Below are positions 5,712-32,041 of a stretch of 64,000 nt of DNA, one piece after another (the stretch's first letter is position 1; the number at the start of each line of letters is the position of its first letter). The notes under the pieces were generated by a model. The model did not search any database and had not been told where the DNA came from. It saw nothing but the letters and a program-made list of their open reading frames with translations. The translations under genes and the position numbers were made by a program. Location of the stretch: contig NZ_CP155551.1 in assembly GCF_039679125.1 (NCBI RefSeq), positions 2,356,001 through 2,420,000 on the forward strand, in the 5' to 3' direction. This stretch comes from Blastococcus sp. HT6-4. GTDB taxonomy: Bacteria > Actinomycetota > Actinomycetes > Mycobacteriales > Geodermatophilaceae.

Positions 5712-7225
5712 GCGCGGTGGACGGTTCCTCCCCCGGCCGGCTCTACGGGGTCGGGCTGGGCCCCGGCGATCCCGAGCTGGTCACGGTCAAGGCCGCCCGG
5801 CTGATCGGCGCCGCCGACGTCGTCGCCTTCCACGCCGCCCGGCACGGCCGTTCGGTCGCCCGCGCGCTGGCCGAGCCCTACCTGCGCGAGGGCCAGGTCG
5901 AGGAGCTGCTGGTCTACCCGGTCACCACCGAGACGACCGACCACCCCGGCGGCTACCAGGGCGCCATCGACGAGTTCTACGAAGCCGCCGCGGCCCGGCT
6001 CGCCGCCCACCTCGACGCCGGGCGCGACGTCGTCGTGCTCGCCGAGGGCGACCCCCTCTTCTACGGCTCGTACATGCACATGCACAAGCGGCTGGCGCAC
6101 CGCTACCCCACCGAGGTCGTCCCCGGGGTCACCAGCATCACGGCCGCGGCCGCCGCCGTCGGCCGCCCCCTGGTCGAGCGCGACGAGGTGCTCACCGTCC
6201 TGCCCGGGACGCTGCCGGCCGAGCAGCTCGCCGAGCGGCTCGCGGCCACCGACTCCGCCGCGGTGATGAAGCTCGGCCGCACCTTCCCACAGGTGCGGGA
6301 AGCGTTCGAGCGGGCCGGCGTCCTCGACCGGGCCCTATACGTCGAGCGTGCCACCACCGACCGCCAGCGGTGCATGCCGCTGGCCGACGTCGACCCGGCG
6401 AGCGTGCCCTACTTCTCCCTGGCCCTGCTGCCCAGCCCGCTCACGCCGCAGCTCGTCGAGCCGGCGCGCCCGACCGAGCGGCCGGCCACGACCGGCGAGG
6501 TGGTGGTCGTCGGGCTCGGGCCCGGCGCCCGCGCCTGGACGACGCCGGAGGCCGCCGAGGCCCTCGCCGCCGCCGACGACCTGGTCGGCTACGGGCCCTA
6601 CCTCGACCGCGTCGAGGTCAACCCGCGCCAGGCCCGCCACCCCAGCGACAACCGCGTGGAGGCCGACCGCGCCGCGCACGCGCTCGAGCTGGCGCGCTCG
6701 GGCCGGCGGGTCGCCGTCGTCTCCAGCGGCGACCCCGGGGTCTTCGCCATGGCCGCCGCCGTCCTCGAGGTCGCCGCCCGGCCCGAGTTCGCCGGCGTCC
6801 CGGTGCGGGTCGTCCCCGGCCTCACCGCCGCGCAGGCCGTCGCCTCCCGCGTCGGCGCCCCGCTGGGCCACGACTTCTGCATCCTGTCGCTCTCCGACGT
6901 CCTCAAGCCCTGGGACGTGATCGTCGACCGGCTCCGCCACGCCGCAGCCGCCGACCTGGTGATCGCCCTCTACAACCCGCGGTCCCGGCACCGCCCGCAC
7001 CAACTGGGCGAGGCCCTGCAGGTGCTGCGGGAGATCCGCGCCCCCGGCACGGTGGTGGTCGTCGGCCGCGACGTCGGCGGGCCGCAGGAGTCGGTCACCG
7101 TCACCACGCTCGGCGACCTGGACCCGGAGACGGTGGACATGCGCTGCCTGGTGCTGATCGGCTCGTCGCAGACCCGGGTCACGCCGTCGGGGGCCGTCTA
7201 CACCTCGCGCACCTACCCGGGGTGA
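5708..7225 (+). CDS. cobIJ: Bifunctional precorrin-2 C20-/precorrin-3B C17-methyltransferase CobIJ
   Basis: 505 residues from GTG 5708, overlapping the cobH stop. Two SAM-dependent tetrapyrrole methylase domains are fused. CobI occupies about 1-240, with [18 protein letters not shown] near the N-terminus and [12 protein letters not shown]. CobJ occupies about 255-500, with [28 protein letters not shown] and ALYNPRS. The fusion is usual in actinobacteria, including mycobacteria. The two domains act either side of CobG: C20 methylation gives precorrin-3A, and C17 methylation with ring contraction gives precorrin-4. Only 14 bp separate it from the next gene. Confidence 0.95.
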
Positions 7226-27471: not shown

Positions 27472-28107
27472 TCAGCCGGGCAGCAGCCGGCCGAGGACAC
27501 CCTTGGCCGTCGAGCCGGCCCGGTAGGACTGCACGAGCCAGGACCCGCACACGATGTTCGCGCCCGCCAGGACGGGCACCAGGAACTGGGTCGCGCGCTG
27601 GCGGTGCTGCCACGCGGCGATCTCGTCCGGGGTCCCTGCCGAGGGGATCGTCGCGTCCTCGACCGCGACCGGCGTGCCGCGCCGCTCGGCCTCCTCGGCC
27701 AGCTGGGCGATGCGGGCCCCGGAGTAGGACGCGAAGCCGGTGGCAGCCGCTCCGGCGACGACCACGCCCGCCTTAAGGGCGCCCACGGTGCCGAACCCCT
27801 TCTGCAGCGCGATCCGGCGGCCACCGGTACGGGTGAGCTGCAGGCCTGCGAGCACGGTGGCGGCGATGCCCGCCCACTGAGCCGGGGCGAAGCGTCCCCA
27901 CGCCGCACTCGCCACCCGGATCCGGTCGATGCCCTGGCTCAGGTCCGCGCCCGACTTGTTGACCCCGGCCACCCCCATGACCGTTCCGCCGAACCACAGG
28001 GCCGAACCCAGGTCGTGCACCGCCTGTGCGGCGACGTGGTTGTCGCTGCGGGTCCCGAGCCCGCCGCGCGACCGCAAGGCTGCCGGTCCGGCGGAGCGCC
28101 TGGTCAC
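27472..28107 (-). CDS. Membrane protein of unknown function
   Basis: 211 residues from GTG 28107, with GGAGGACT upstream. Hydrophobic segments include [16 protein letters not shown] (about 34-49), an Ala-rich stretch near 77-92, [18 protein letters not shown] (about 108-125) and [16 protein letters not shown] near the C-terminus. I do not recognise a named family. It overlaps the small acidic gene upstream by 4 bp. Confidence 0.75.
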
Positions 28108-28420: not shown

Positions 28421-29035
28421 ATGTCCGACGTGCTCCTCGTCCTGCTGATCGTCTTCCTGGTGGCCGTCGCGATCCTGGCTGCGGTCGTCCTCGTGCTGCG
28501 CCGCCGCAACCTGGCGAAGGCCGCCGCCCCGCGGCCCCGTGTCGACCCGCTGGCCGACGAGCCCGACGTCTACGACCCGCACTCGATCGGGGTCGGCGAC
28601 GTGATCACCTACGCGGGCGTCGACCACGTCGTCCGCGGCACCATCGTGCTCGAGGAGGGCGGGATGACCTGGCGCGAGCACCTGCTCGACGGGTCGACCG
28701 GCCGGCGGTGGCTCACGGTCGAGGACGACGAGGGCGACCTCGAGATGACGCTCTGGATGCGCCGGGAGGGCACGAACCTGACCCCGGACGGCGACGTGAT
28801 CCTCGACGACCGGGTGCACCGCCAGATCGAGCGCGGCCGGGCCGCCTACACCGCCGAGGGCACGACCGGCACGCCGCCGAGCGGCACCATGGAGTACGCC
28901 GACTACGCGACGGCCGACAAGACCGGGCAGATCGCGTTCGAGCGGTGGGCCCCCACGCAGTCGTGGGAGGTCTCCACCGGGCGCACCGTCAGCCGGGGCG
29001 AGCTGACCGTCTACCACCGGACGCCCGAGGCATGA
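28421..29035 (+). CDS. DUF4178 protein with N-terminal membrane anchor
   Basis: 204 residues from ATG 28421 with a CAGGAG site. One membrane helix (about 4-27) is followed by a basic patch and a DUF4178 domain (about 50-195: IGVGDVITYAGVDHVVRGTI, GMTWREHLLDG, WLTVEDDEGDLEMTLW). First gene of a coupled plus-strand set running to the spermidine-synthase-like gene. DUF4178 often occurs beside DUF350 and polyamine-synthase genes; function unknown. Confidence 0.85.
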   Translation: MSDVLLVLLIVFLVAVAILAAVVLVLRRRNLAKAAAPRPRVDPLADEPDVYDPHSIGVGDVITYAGVDHVVRGTIVLEEGGMTWREHLLDGSTGRRWLTVEDDEGDLEMTLWMRREGTNLTPDGDVILDDRVHRQIERGRAAYTAEGTTGTPPSGTMEYADYATADKTGQIAFERWAPTQSWEVSTGRTVSRGELTVYHRTPEA

Positions 29036-29541
29036 CCCTGCACCTGCTGGACGTCGAGCCGCGGGACGTCGCCGCCGGCGCTCTCGGCCTGCTCCTCGGC
29101 GGCCCGGCGCCCGAGCCGCTCGCGCGGCTGCGGCTGACCGACGCGCACGGCGGGTCGCTGATCCTCGGTGTGCTCGGCGCCTCGCACGTGGTGACGGCGC
29201 GGGCCCGCGGGGAGGAGTGCACCGAGGAGGTCTCCTGCGACGCGATCGGGGCGGGCGGCGCCCCCCTGCCCCCGGCCCTGCGGTCCGGCGGCTACGGCTT
29301 CTCCTCCGCGGTCACCCGCACGAACCGGCTCGAGCTGGACGCCACCGCCGACGGGCTGCGCGCGCGGGCGGCGCGGGACACGGCGTGGCTCTGCGGCGCC
29401 TTCCCCGGCTCGGGCAGCGCACTCACCGCCATGACCGCGGACCCGCTCCCCGACGGGGGCTGGGCCTGGCGGACCTGGCACCTCTACCCCGCCGGCGACA
29501 CCGGCGAGGTCGTCACGACACAGACCAGGTGGACGCCGTGA
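29032..29541 (+). CDS. DUF2617 protein
   Basis: 169 residues from ATG 29032, overlapping the DUF4178 gene by 4 bp. Recognisable features are HLLDVEPRDVAAGALGLLL, LILGVLGASHVV, a YGFSSAVTRTNRLELDA segment and the ending WRTWHLYPAGDTGEVVTTQT, as in DUF2617. No signal peptide, so probably cytoplasmic. It overlaps the next gene by 4 bp. Confidence 0.82.
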   Translation: MTLHLLDVEPRDVAAGALGLLLGGPAPEPLARLRLTDAHGGSLILGVLGASHVVTARARGEECTEEVSCDAIGAGGAPLPPALRSGGYGFSSAVTRTNRLELDATADGLRARAARDTAWLCGAFPGSGSALTAMTADPLPDGGWAWRTWHLYPAGDTGEVVTTQTRWTP

Positions 29542-29945
29542 GATCCATGTCCCGGATGGTGGCCCTCGCACTGGCCGCCGTCCTGCTCCTGACCAGCTGC
29601 GGGACCGGTACCCGCATCCGCGCCTTCCTCGACGACACCTACGAGCGGACCGAGATCGTCGGCGACGCCGCGGTCTACGCCTCGCCCGATCCGGTGGGCA
29701 CCACGACCGCGGCCATCACCGACGCCGTCCCCCCGGCGGAACGGCAGGCCGACGGCGGGAACGAGTACCTGCGCTACGACGACGACATCGTGATCGTCAG
29801 CGCCGCAGCGAACGGCAGCACCGTGCGCGTCGAGGACCTCGACGAGCGGTACCGCAGCGGCTTCTTCGCCTTCCTCGGGCCGGGCTTCCGGCCGGGCTCC
29901 CCCGTCGGCACGGGCGGCAGCGGCGGTCCCGGGGACGCCAAGTGA
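29538..29945 (+). CDS. DUF4247 lipoprotein
   Basis: 135 residues from GTG 29538 (4-bp overlap with DUF2617); ATG 29547 is an alternative. A signal sequence ends in the lipobox LLTSCG, so the protein should be lipid-anchored outside the membrane. The body (AVYASPDPVGTTTAAITDA, EYLRYDDDIVIVS, the ARYYR-like LDERYRSGFFAFLGPGF) and Gly/Ser tail match DUF4247. Function unknown; third member of the coupled set. Confidence 0.82.
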   Translation: MRSMSRMVALALAAVLLLTSCGTGTRIRAFLDDTYERTEIVGDAAVYASPDPVGTTTAAITDAVPPAERQADGGNEYLRYDDDIVIVSAAANGSTVRVEDLDERYRSGFFAFLGPGFRPGSPVGTGGSGGPGDAK

Positions 29946-29994
29946 CCCCCGCCCGGCACGTCCCCACTCCCCTCGAGACCAGGAGCGACCTCAC

Positions 29995-30459
29995 GTGAGC
30001 ACGACCTACCAGGCCGTGGAGTTCGGCTACGTCGACGCCGACCTGCTGATCCAGGGCGTCGTCGGGACGCTGCTGTTCTTCGTCATCGGGGTGGGCGTGC
30101 TCGCCCTCGGGTTCCTCGCGCTCGACCTCATCACCCCGGGGAACCTCCGCACGCAGGTCTACCTCGACCACAACCCGAACGCGGCGATCCTGCTCGGCGC
30201 CAACCACCTCGCGCTGGCGATCATCGTGGTGACGGCGATCATGACCAGCGCCGACAACCTGGGCCAGGGGCTGGTGGACACGGCGGTCTACGGCCTGATC
30301 GGCGTGCTGCTGCAGGCCCTGGCGCTCCGGGTGCTGGACGCGGTCATCCCCGCCGACCTGCGCTCCCTGGTGAACCAGCCGCGGATGCGTGGCTCGGCGT
30401 GGGCGATCGGCATCAGCCTGGTGGCGATCGGCGCCGTGAACGCCGCCGCGCTGTCCTGA
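29995..30459 (+). CDS. DUF350 integral membrane protein
   Basis: 154 residues from GTG 29995 with AGGAG upstream. About four membrane helices; GTLLFFVIGVGVLALGFLALDLITPGNL, AILLGANHLALAIIVVTAI and the repeated second half with YGLIGVLLQALALRVLDAVIP are typical of DUF350 (YjfL-like). E. coli YjfL lies beside a glutathionylspermidine-synthase-like gene, and here the next gene is a spermidine-synthase-like protein 4 bp away, so the polyamine link is conserved across phyla. Confidence 0.87.
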   Translation: MSTTYQAVEFGYVDADLLIQGVVGTLLFFVIGVGVLALGFLALDLITPGNLRTQVYLDHNPNAAILLGANHLALAIIVVTAIMTSADNLGQGLVDTAVYGLIGVLLQALALRVLDAVIPADLRSLVNQPRMRGSAWAIGISLVAIGAVNAAALS

Positions 30460-30463
30460 GGTC

Positions 30464-32041
30464 ATGACGGCGACGGCGCAGGGGGTGTCGGCGGCGGGTC
30501 CCGCCGCGGCGGGCGGCGGCGTGCGCTCGCGCCCCCTGCTGCTGGCCGCCGTCGCCGTCTGCGCGGCGTGCGGGCTGATCTACGAGCTGGTGCTGCTCAC
30601 CCTGTCGGCGAGCCTCACCGGTGGCGGGATCACCCAGACCTCGCTGATCGTGGCGGGGTTCGTCGCGGCGCTCGGCGCGGGCGCGCTGCTGGTCAAGCCG
30701 TTCCTCGGGCACGCCGCCGCGACCTTCGTGGCGGTGGAGATCCTGCTCGGTGTCGTGGGCGGCCTGAGCGCCGTGACGCTCTACGTCTCGTTCTCCTTCT
30801 ACGGGACCAGCAGCGCGGTCCTGCTGGTCGGCACGGCGGTGATCGGCGTCCTCGTGGGTGCCGAGGTGCCGCTGCTCATGACGCTGCTGCAGTCCGGGCG
30901 CAGCGGTGTCGACGCCCGCGGCTCGGGCTCGCTGCTCGCCGACCTCAACGCCGCCGACTACGCCGGCGCGCTGCTCGGCGGCCTGGCCTGGCCGTTCCTG
31001 CTGCTGCCGCTGGCCGGTCAGATCCGCGGCGCGGCTTTCACCGGGGTGCTCAACCTCCTGGCCGCCGCGGTCGTGGCCACCTTCCTCCTGCGCGGTGAGC
31101 TGACCCCCCGCGCCCGCCGCACGGCCACGGCGGCGCTACTGGCGGCGGCCGCCGTCCTCGGGGTGCTGCTCCTCCGGGCCGAGGACATCGAGACCACCTC
31201 CCGGCAGCGGCTCTACGCCGACCCGGTGGTGGCCGCGCAGCGCTCGGACTACCAGGAGGTCGTGCTCACCGAGCGCGGCGACGACGTCCGGCTGTACCTC
31301 GACGGCGACCTGCAGTTCTCCAGCCGGGACGAGCACCGCTACACGGAGGCGTTGGTCCACCCGGTGCTGGCCCGCGATCCGGAGCGGGTGCTGATCCTCG
31401 GCGGCGGGGACGGGCTGGCCGCGCGCGAGGTGCTCCGCCACCCGACGGTCGGCGAGGTCGTGCAGGTGGAGCTGGACCCGGCGGTCGTCGACCTGGCGCG
31501 GACGCGGCTGGCCGGGCTCAACGCCGGCGCGCTGGACGACCCCCGGGTCGAGGTGGTGCTGGACGACGCCTTCCGCTGGCTGCGCTCCCCGGCCGCGACC
31601 GGCTTCGACGCGGTGGTCGTGGACATGCCCGACCCGGACACCCCGGTGCTCGGCCGGCTCTACTCCACCGAGTTCTACGGGCTCGTCGCCGCGGCCGTGG
31701 CGCCCGGCGGGCTGGTCACGGTGCAGGCCGGCAGCCCCTACTCCACGCCCACGGCCTTCTGGCGGACGATCGCGACGCTGGACTCGGCCGGGCTGGCGCC
31801 CACGCCGTACCACGTGCACGTGCCGAGCTTCGGCGACTGGGGCTTCGCCGTCGCGCAGTCCGGCGGGACCCCGCCCGGCCTCTCCCTCTCCCCCGCGGCC
31901 CCGCCGCTGCGGTTCCTCGACGACGCGGTCCTGCAGGCCGCCGGGGTCTTCCCGGCCGACCGGCGGCCGCAGCGCCTGGAGCCCTCCACCCTCGACCGGC
32001 CGCGGATCGTCGACGACATGCGCAGCGGCTACGTCGGCTGA
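30464..32041 (+). CDS. Membrane-anchored spermidine synthase-like protein
   Basis: 525 residues from ATG 30464. The N-terminal half (about 25-235) has about seven membrane helices, and the C-terminal half is a SpeE-type methyltransferase-fold domain with the nucleotide loop LILGGGDGLAAREVL, acidic LDPAVVDLAR, and DMPDPDTPVLGRLYSTEFY. Motifs YLDGDLQFSSRDEHRYTE and QAGSPYSTPTAFW match polyamine aminopropyltransferases. It probably transfers an aminopropyl (or other) group at the membrane face. Substrate is unproven: fused forms are usually only annotated by homology. Confidence 0.88.
   Translation: MTATAQGVSAAGPAAAGGGVRSRPLLLAAVAVCAACGLIYELVLLTLSASLTGGGITQTSLIVAGFVAALGAGALLVKPFLGHAAATFVAVEILLGVVGGLSAVTLYVSFSFYGTSSAVLLVGTAVIGVLVGAEVPLLMTLLQSGRSGVDARGSGSLLADLNAADYAGALLGGLAWPFLLLPLAGQIRGAAFTGVLNLLAAAVVATFLLRGELTPRARRTATAALLAAAAVLGVLLLRAEDIETTSRQRLYADPVVAAQRSDYQEVVLTERGDDVRLYLDGDLQFSSRDEHRYTEALVHPVLARDPERVLILGGGDGLAAREVLRHPTVGEVVQVELDPAVVDLARTRLAGLNAGALDDPRVEVVLDDAFRWLRSPAATGFDAVVVDMPDPDTPVLGRLYSTEFYGLVAAAVAPGGLVTVQAGSPYSTPTAFWRTIATLDSAGLAPTPYHVHVPSFGDWGFAVAQSGGTPPGLSLSPAAPPLRFLDDAVLQAAGVFPADRRPQRLEPSTLDRPRIVDDMRSGYVG

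Follow-up and report, generated by a model that had tools for sequence, protein, structure and literature searches.

An aminopropyltransferase requires decarboxylated S-adenosylmethionine (dcAdoMet), and the usual source of this donor is S-adenosylmethionine decarboxylase (AdoMetDC). The complete 4.30-Mb genome of Blastococcus sp. HT6-4 encodes a membrane protein of the spermidine synthase family, here called SYN, and no protein that matches the AdoMetDC family PF02675 (SpeD). Where does the donor come from, and what does SYN act on? SYN is the last gene of a compact five-gene set in a 64,000-nucleotide stretch of contig NZ_CP155551.1 (positions 2,356,001 to 2,420,000), hereafter the window, whose numbering is used below. 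We suggest that the set is probably an envelope protein-modification module, based on a lysine-ended protein tail confined to SYN loci and on the complementary distribution of DUF2617 and AdoMetDC. The five genes are:

28421..29035, + strand: DUF4178 protein, 204 amino acids (aa); PF13785, 1.3e-29
29032..29541, + strand: DUF2617 protein, 169 aa; PF10936, 2.6e-47; ATGA overlap with the DUF4178 gene
29538..29945, + strand: DUF4247 lipoprotein, 135 aa; PF14042, 1.5e-25; GTG start, GTGA overlap, lipobox LTSC
29995..30459, + strand: DUF350 (YjfL family) membrane protein, 154 aa; PF03994, 2.4e-23; GTG start
30464..32041, + strand: SYN, a membrane aminopropyltransferase-like protein, 525 aa; PF01564, 1.1e-34 at residues 290-462

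Each gene scores well above the Pfam curated cut-off for its family. An initial annotation of the same DNA had named these five families, the 4-bp overlaps joining the first three genes and the 4-bp gap between DUF350 and SYN (30459 versus 30464), all of which we found as described.

The set was compared in two overlapping samples, one class-wide (197 genomes) and one covering the order (180 genomes); L numbers denote compared loci and G numbers sampled genomes. DUF2617 was found in 50 of the 197 class-wide genomes. SYN lies close by and on the same strand at all 54 DUF2617 loci of the sampled genomes, and the grouping is thus not due to chance. The order DUF4178-DUF2617-DUF4247-DUF350-SYN is kept at these loci, some members being absent, with the exception of L098 (G306), a degenerate locus in which a stop codon splits SYN into two frames and the other genes are reordered. 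The actinobacterial loci among 80 SYN loci from named genomes show the same order; the closest named relatives of SYN come from Blastococcus (83-85% identity). The initial annotation had allowed that the families might co-occur only in close relatives. We found the set in Mycobacterium, Corynebacterium, Streptomyces, Micromonospora, Gordonia, Glycomyces, one Chloroflexota genome and others, and the Chloroflexota locus L228 has the usual order with another protein, discussed below, in the place of DUF4247. The existence and conservation of the five-gene set are near certain. Downstream of it in Blastococcus is the gene for peptide chain release factor 3, a homologue of which was found at only 3 of the 80 loci from named genomes (two from Blastococcus); the set is therefore the conserved unit and its surroundings vary.

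The same gene families make up an operon in M. tuberculosis, which we take to span Rv2597-Rv2601. Ravi et al. 2024 (PMC11237479) have published this operon type and present it as a variant in which DUF2617 (CCP45394.1) and DUF4247 (CCP45395.1) replace a CesT/PspA pair. The combination that marks such operons, DUF350, DUF4178 and a spermidine-synthase-like gene fused to transmembrane segments occurring together, is present in the Blastococcus set. The operon itself is thus already published; what we add is the mutual exclusion of DUF2617 and AdoMetDC, a lysine tail specific to SYN loci, and the residues and topology of SYN. The word "lysine" is absent from the main text of PMC11237479, where the tail goes unmentioned, and the accessible parts of that paper do not mention the exclusion. 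In the searchable literature we found no published description of either.

Is SYN an enzyme? Its Spermine_synth domain (PF01564) has the aminopropyltransferase fold according to both Pfam and Foldseek, and its closest sequence relatives in the PDB are 3anx and 1uir. The AlphaFold2 (AF2) model has a predicted local distance difference test (pLDDT) score of 90.8 and matches 1uir with 6.6e-17 and a target TM-score of 0.74. The catalytic residues D387 and D390, placed by alignment with solved enzymes, are invariant in 31 SYN sequences from several phyla. So are the dcAdoMet-site residues G313-G315, D316, D338 and D368, and Q264 and Y293 on the acceptor side. Loss of substrate-binding residues, which the initial annotation had considered, is accordingly not what the alignment shows. 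SYN shares its fold and catalytic residues with the soluble spermidine synthase SpeE of Thermus thermophilus (1UIR/3ANX). Unlike SpeE, which is usually soluble and cytosolic (a trait that is not strictly defining), it has an N-terminal region of seven transmembrane helices, a catalytic domain predicted to lie outside, a loop of the FGDWG type and a partner protein with a characteristic tail. These parts of SYN are located as follows:

30527..31213, + strand: seven-helix transmembrane region, residues 22-250; loops rich in lysine and arginine (K/R) all on the predicted inner side
31214..32038, + strand: catalytic domain, residues 251-525; predicted extracytoplasmic
31820..31846, + strand: VPSFGDWGF loop, residues 453-461

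The seven helices were assigned from hydropathy, the AF2 model and charge. A long predicted helix (residues 151-208) holds two hydrophobic stretches and conserved prolines and was counted as two transmembrane segments. K/R amounts to 9.7 on the even-loop side versus 1.0 opposite, on that of the odd loops, and 31 of 31 SYN sequences have the excess on the even side. An N-terminus inside and seven helices place the catalytic domain outside, and an outward-facing domain is therefore likely. The membrane location proposed in the initial annotation stands, with this orientation added. The catalytic domain holds 0.39 cysteines per 282 residues versus 4 in a 322-residue frame with soluble actinobacterial SpeE. 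This lends the outward placement weak support, since the DUF4178 domain, predicted to lie inside, is likewise poor in cysteine. Two amine oxidases with twin-arginine-like N-termini, one of them also with a lipobox, are encoded directly downstream of SYN in Bacteroidetes (L176, 8510-10126) and Deltaproteobacteria (L180, 8473-10134), which suggests that the SYN product or its oxidation is extracytoplasmic.

The donor question, which the initial annotation did not consider, is best approached through gene content. In the class-wide sample full-length SYN occurs in 53 genomes, of which 50 have DUF2617 (three of these also have AdoMetDC) and the remaining 3 of 3 have AdoMetDC. In the order sample SYN occurs in 57 of 180 genomes; 47 have DUF2617 and the other 10 of 10 have AdoMetDC. 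The union of the two samples holds 96 actinobacterial genomes with SYN, 85 with DUF2617 and 11 of 11 others with AdoMetDC, and none lacks both genes. AdoMetDC matches accompany DUF2617 in 4 of the 85, three of them clear. The fourth, G637 in the order sample, is a weak match that a local hidden Markov model did not confirm. Among the named genomes tested, three actinobacterial SYN holders without DUF2617 all have AdoMetDC and the DUF2617 holders have none. Non-actinobacterial genomes follow the same rule, except a small metagenome-assembled genome (L180) with neither gene.

Where a whole operon was recovered at a DUF2617-negative locus, DUF2617 alone is gone and the remainder is intact. At L230, for instance, the DUF4247 frame directly follows DUF4178, and in G675 and G744 AdoMetDC is encoded in a separate speD-speE cluster. 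One Bacteroidetes operon consists of AdoMetDC, DUF4178, DUF350, SYN and an amine oxidase, and this presence of AdoMetDC within a SYN operon supports a donor role for DUF2617. Based on the reciprocal occurrence and on the intact operons that lack DUF2617 where AdoMetDC is present, we regard DUF2617 as the foremost candidate for supplying dcAdoMet in genomes with the SYN operon, a proposal we place a little short of an even chance.

The exclusion is strong as a pattern and modest in independent events. DUF2617 status changes six times on a 98-row SYN tree, and only three independent pairs lie on supported branches, all opposing AdoMetDC and none with it (p = 0.25; three pairs are too few for significance), so that the number of independent switches is three to six. 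It is conceivable, if unlikely, that the exclusion is a coincidence of lineage, DUF2617 having been lost in a few clades that kept a speD-speE cluster, with no relation to dcAdoMet. The few events fit that explanation, as do the genomes that hold both genes, the many Pseudonocardiaceae-type genomes (f100) with AdoMetDC and no SYN, and the lack of a recognisable AdoMetDC fold in DUF2617. It leaves unaccounted for that every SYN genome in the two samples has at least one of the two genes, that the independent pairs all point the same way, and that the non-actinobacterial genomes apart from L180 fit the rule.

DUF2617 has no visible signal peptide, and its AF2 model is rich in beta structure (pLDDT 95.9). 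Eight residues are invariant in 93 sequences (S51, H52, E65, T132, W146, H150, Y152 and P153). The Ser-His motif resembles the processing site of SpeD, and the DUF2617 of L189 reads GESH; the residue before Ser51-His52 is alanine in 88 of the 93 sequences and glutamate in one. None of 42 DUF2617 members matches PF02675 or PF01536 up to E = 10. An AdoMetDC fold is not among the 50 best Foldseek hits in the PDB, which include no confident match of any kind. A profile comparison of DUF2617 with AdoMetDC first gave E = 0.0034 and in reruns 0.031-0.046, the score being matched in 0-4 of 150 permutations, and the unrelated DUF350, used as a control, scores as well. The hints of homology are a motif and a profile similarity at noise level, the Foldseek search was blank, and we have dropped the idea that DUF2617 is a recognisable homologue of AdoMetDC; it would be a non-orthologous enzyme. 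A search for the eukaryotic-type AdoMetDC (PF01536) gave no matches, its positive control being silent too, and a plasmid search for distant DUF2617 found none.

DUF2617 also matches in the control genome of the haloarchaeon Haloferax volcanii. At L106 of the Streptomyces-type genome G182, a SpeD-family protein (6155-6532) has the processing site LSASH in place of ESH and no aminopropyltransferase match beside it. It has possibly been neofunctionalised, and the classification of G182 as an AdoMetDC genome is therefore doubtful.

Ravi et al. (PMC11237479) suggest the monitoring of polyamines or of aminopropylation as the role of related systems. Along these lines, the set could be a polyamine- or AdoMet-responsive envelope-stress complex of the Psp type, in which the SpeE-like domain would serve mainly for sensing or as a scaffold and DUF2617 would be an unrelated protein, either a regulator or a partner enzyme. 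The same paper lists PspA/CesT and band-7 proteins among the relatives of the operon, and expression of the M. tuberculosis DUF4247 protein, Rv2599, shifts with growth phase and upon exposure to surfactant (PMC3726780). Among the five Blastococcus genes there is no PspA match in Pfam; the rest of the genome was not searched for PspA. The full conservation of the SYN catalytic residues speaks for an enzyme, and a DUF2617 that can be missing just where AdoMetDC is encoded speaks for donor supply and not for sensing, and we consider such a complex quite unlikely.

What, then, would SYN act on? DUF4247 is poorly conserved apart from its tail, and the final residue is lysine in all 72 proteins compared:

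29907..29942, + strand: C-terminal tail of DUF4247, GTGGSGGPGDAK, reaching the last residue; lysine codon 29940-29942; proposed acceptor site

The usual form of the tail is RGGG[PS]GxGK or GGxxGGPGGxK, and the protein in the window ends GPGDAK. A second lysine within the preceding 14 residues occurs in 1 of the 72. A C-terminal lysine is found in 1/80, 0/124, 0/93 and 0/136 members of the other four operon families. Genomes without DUF4247 have an unrelated exported or anchored protein in the same slot with the same RGGG[PS]GxGK-type end (L071, L076, L079, L080, L083, L084, L086, L087, L090, L093, L138 and L155). A strict tail pattern matched 92 of 18,951 open reading frames, all 92 near SYN and on its strand and none elsewhere. 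The pattern was composed after the tails had been seen, and its absence elsewhere is the informative part. Outside Actinobacteria, the strict tail is borne by short anchored proteins of Chloroflexota (L189, L228) and Bacteroidetes (L188). Looser lysine-terminal tails lie beside SYN in Pseudoduganella (L178, GGGGHK), a deltaproteobacterium (L180, GFSHK) and Bacteroidetes (L176, HHYHK). The strict pattern misses these, and the claim is consequently softer outside Actinobacteria and Chloroflexota. With that scope, the tail is conserved and specific to SYN loci, and our confidence in this is very high.

The loop FG[D/E/G/N]WG is a feature of SYN proteins that have a tail partner, apart from one category of exceptions, which are close variants. 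The loop is absent from 41 SYN genes without a tail partner, nearly all of them Streptomyces-type pairs, and at least part of this association reflects one clade. Tail presence coincides with DUF350, which accompanies the tail protein and not the synthase as such. From the conservation of the tail, its restriction to SYN loci and the SYN loop, we infer that the C-terminal lysine is the group on which SYN acts; this assignment of the acceptor is tentative, about as apt to fail as to hold, with failure slightly favoured.

Streptomyces-type genomes (group f5) often have DUF2617-SYN alone, and a second set, DUF2617-DUF4247-DUF350-SYN, occurs in three of those sampled. The minimal pairs (L050-L070, L160-L187) form a long-branched SYN clade. 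They have no DUF350, DUF4178 or tail protein nearby, and their SYN, in which another loop takes the place of FGDWG, probably acts on another acceptor.

Taken together, we propose the following. Cytosolic DUF2617 probably supplies dcAdoMet in place of the absent pyruvoyl-type AdoMetDC. The transmembrane domain of SYN, described as transporter-like for such proteins in PMC11237479, may pass dcAdoMet outward. Outward-facing SYN would then move the aminopropyl group to the C-terminal lysine of a lipoprotein, at its epsilon-amine; the lipoprotein is DUF4247 or, in some genomes, the unrelated protein that shares its tail. The side chain of lysine resembles putrescine in being an aminobutyl amine, and its aminopropylation would leave the surface lipoprotein tipped with a spermidine-like side chain. 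We know of no bacterial modification of this kind. The main lines of this model we hold as a working proposal, somewhat more apt to be wrong than right. That every detail holds together, with an outward SYN, a lipoprotein lysine and DUF2617 as a non-orthologous class of AdoMet decarboxylase, is unlikely. The initial annotation had suggested a polyamine-based envelope modification or stress system; modification remains the best reading, now narrowed to the lysine of the partner lipoprotein, and a similar idea is already found in PMC11237479.

Several points weigh against the proposal, in addition to the few independent switches and the blank structural and profile comparisons given above. Cytosolic dcAdoMet must cross the membrane if the catalytic domain of SYN is outside. 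As an alternative, SYN may face inward and modify the tail, the last part to leave the cell, before export. The tail could serve in binding or sorting rather than as a substrate, and the Streptomyces-type pairs need another acceptor. Mycobacterium and Streptomyces are reported to make spermine de novo (PMC11841054), an ability for which a plain synthase would account. SYN might accordingly be a membrane-anchored spermidine or spermine synthase making free polyamines from dcAdoMet supplied by DUF2617, with the lipoprotein as a sensor or carrier and the tail as its binding element. The conserved active site, the annotation of Rv2601 as SpeE (PMC11841054), the small quantities of spermidine and spermine found in S. 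coelicolor (PMC9397018) and the DUF2617-SYN pairs are all in keeping with this. It gives no reason for an invariant C-terminal lysine tail on unrelated proteins or for a catalytic domain predicted to face outward, and we judge it improbable, while preferring aminopropylation of the lipoprotein lysine.

The proposed modification has parallels elsewhere. The E. coli yjf operon encodes DUF350 (YjfL), the lipoprotein YjfM ending GHWGG, and YjfC, named peptide-spermidine ligase in RefSeq; YgiB, encoded beside YgiC, ends SMGG. Peptide-spermidine ligase activity of YjfC and YgiC was reportedly described by Pederick et al. in 2023. The YjfI-YjfC and YgiB-YgiC systems resemble the Blastococcus set in combining DUF350, a lipoprotein with a glycine-rich C-terminus and a polyamine-attaching enzyme. 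They differ in having an ATP-grasp ligase, lipoproteins ending GG and a PspA homologue, whereas the Blastococcus type has an aminopropyltransferase and GK ends; no ATP-grasp ligase was found among the five operon genes or the scanned flanking genes. Gly-Gly ends would fit an amide ligase coupling spermidine with a carboxylate, and lysine ends an aminopropyltransferase, so that both systems would put a spermidine-like group on a lipoprotein C-terminus. In hypusination of eIF5A a lysine side chain also becomes a spermidine-like chain, as it would in the SYN product. Deoxyhypusine synthase differs in moving an aminobutyl group from spermidine; enzyme and donor are unrelated, and the target is an internal cytosolic lysine and not a C-terminal one in the envelope.

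The operon is annotated yet unexplained and has mycobacterial counterparts. For M. tuberculosis it was noted in 2004 that a spermidine synthase is present and an AdoMetDC homologue absent, with activity in M. bovis extracts (PMC524486). DUF2617 is the best candidate for the AdoMet decarboxylase of mycobacteria and, if it has that activity, would explain dcAdoMet in these and other actinobacteria without SpeD. Should DUF2617 decarboxylate AdoMet, or the lipoprotein lysine be modified, polyamine annotation in actinobacteria, such as "SpeE" for Rv2601, would be read differently. Gram-positive DUF350 operons and the E. coli ligase operons would then be united by one idea, the decoration of surface lipoproteins at their tips with polyamine groups. 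In vitro binding of Rv2599, the M. tuberculosis DUF4247 protein, to fibronectin, laminin and collagen has been published (PMC3726780).

DUF4178 and DUF350 appear to be accessory. The DUF4178 protein has one N-terminal transmembrane segment followed by RRR, which places its domain (residues 58-191) in the cytoplasm by prediction. Its invariant residues include W81, H84, E98 and W179 (32 relatives).

Directly before DUF4178 a divergent gene on the - strand (27475-28107) encodes a 211-aa orphan with no Pfam match and no homologue among the loci compared. In some lineages the operon contains a further exported protein (about 250 aa) that has no convincing Pfam match, a C-terminal transmembrane segment and a conserved 'QAAESQGICYGW'-like motif:

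L101, 4565-5317, - strand: extra exported protein
L102, 7412-8188, + strand: extra exported protein

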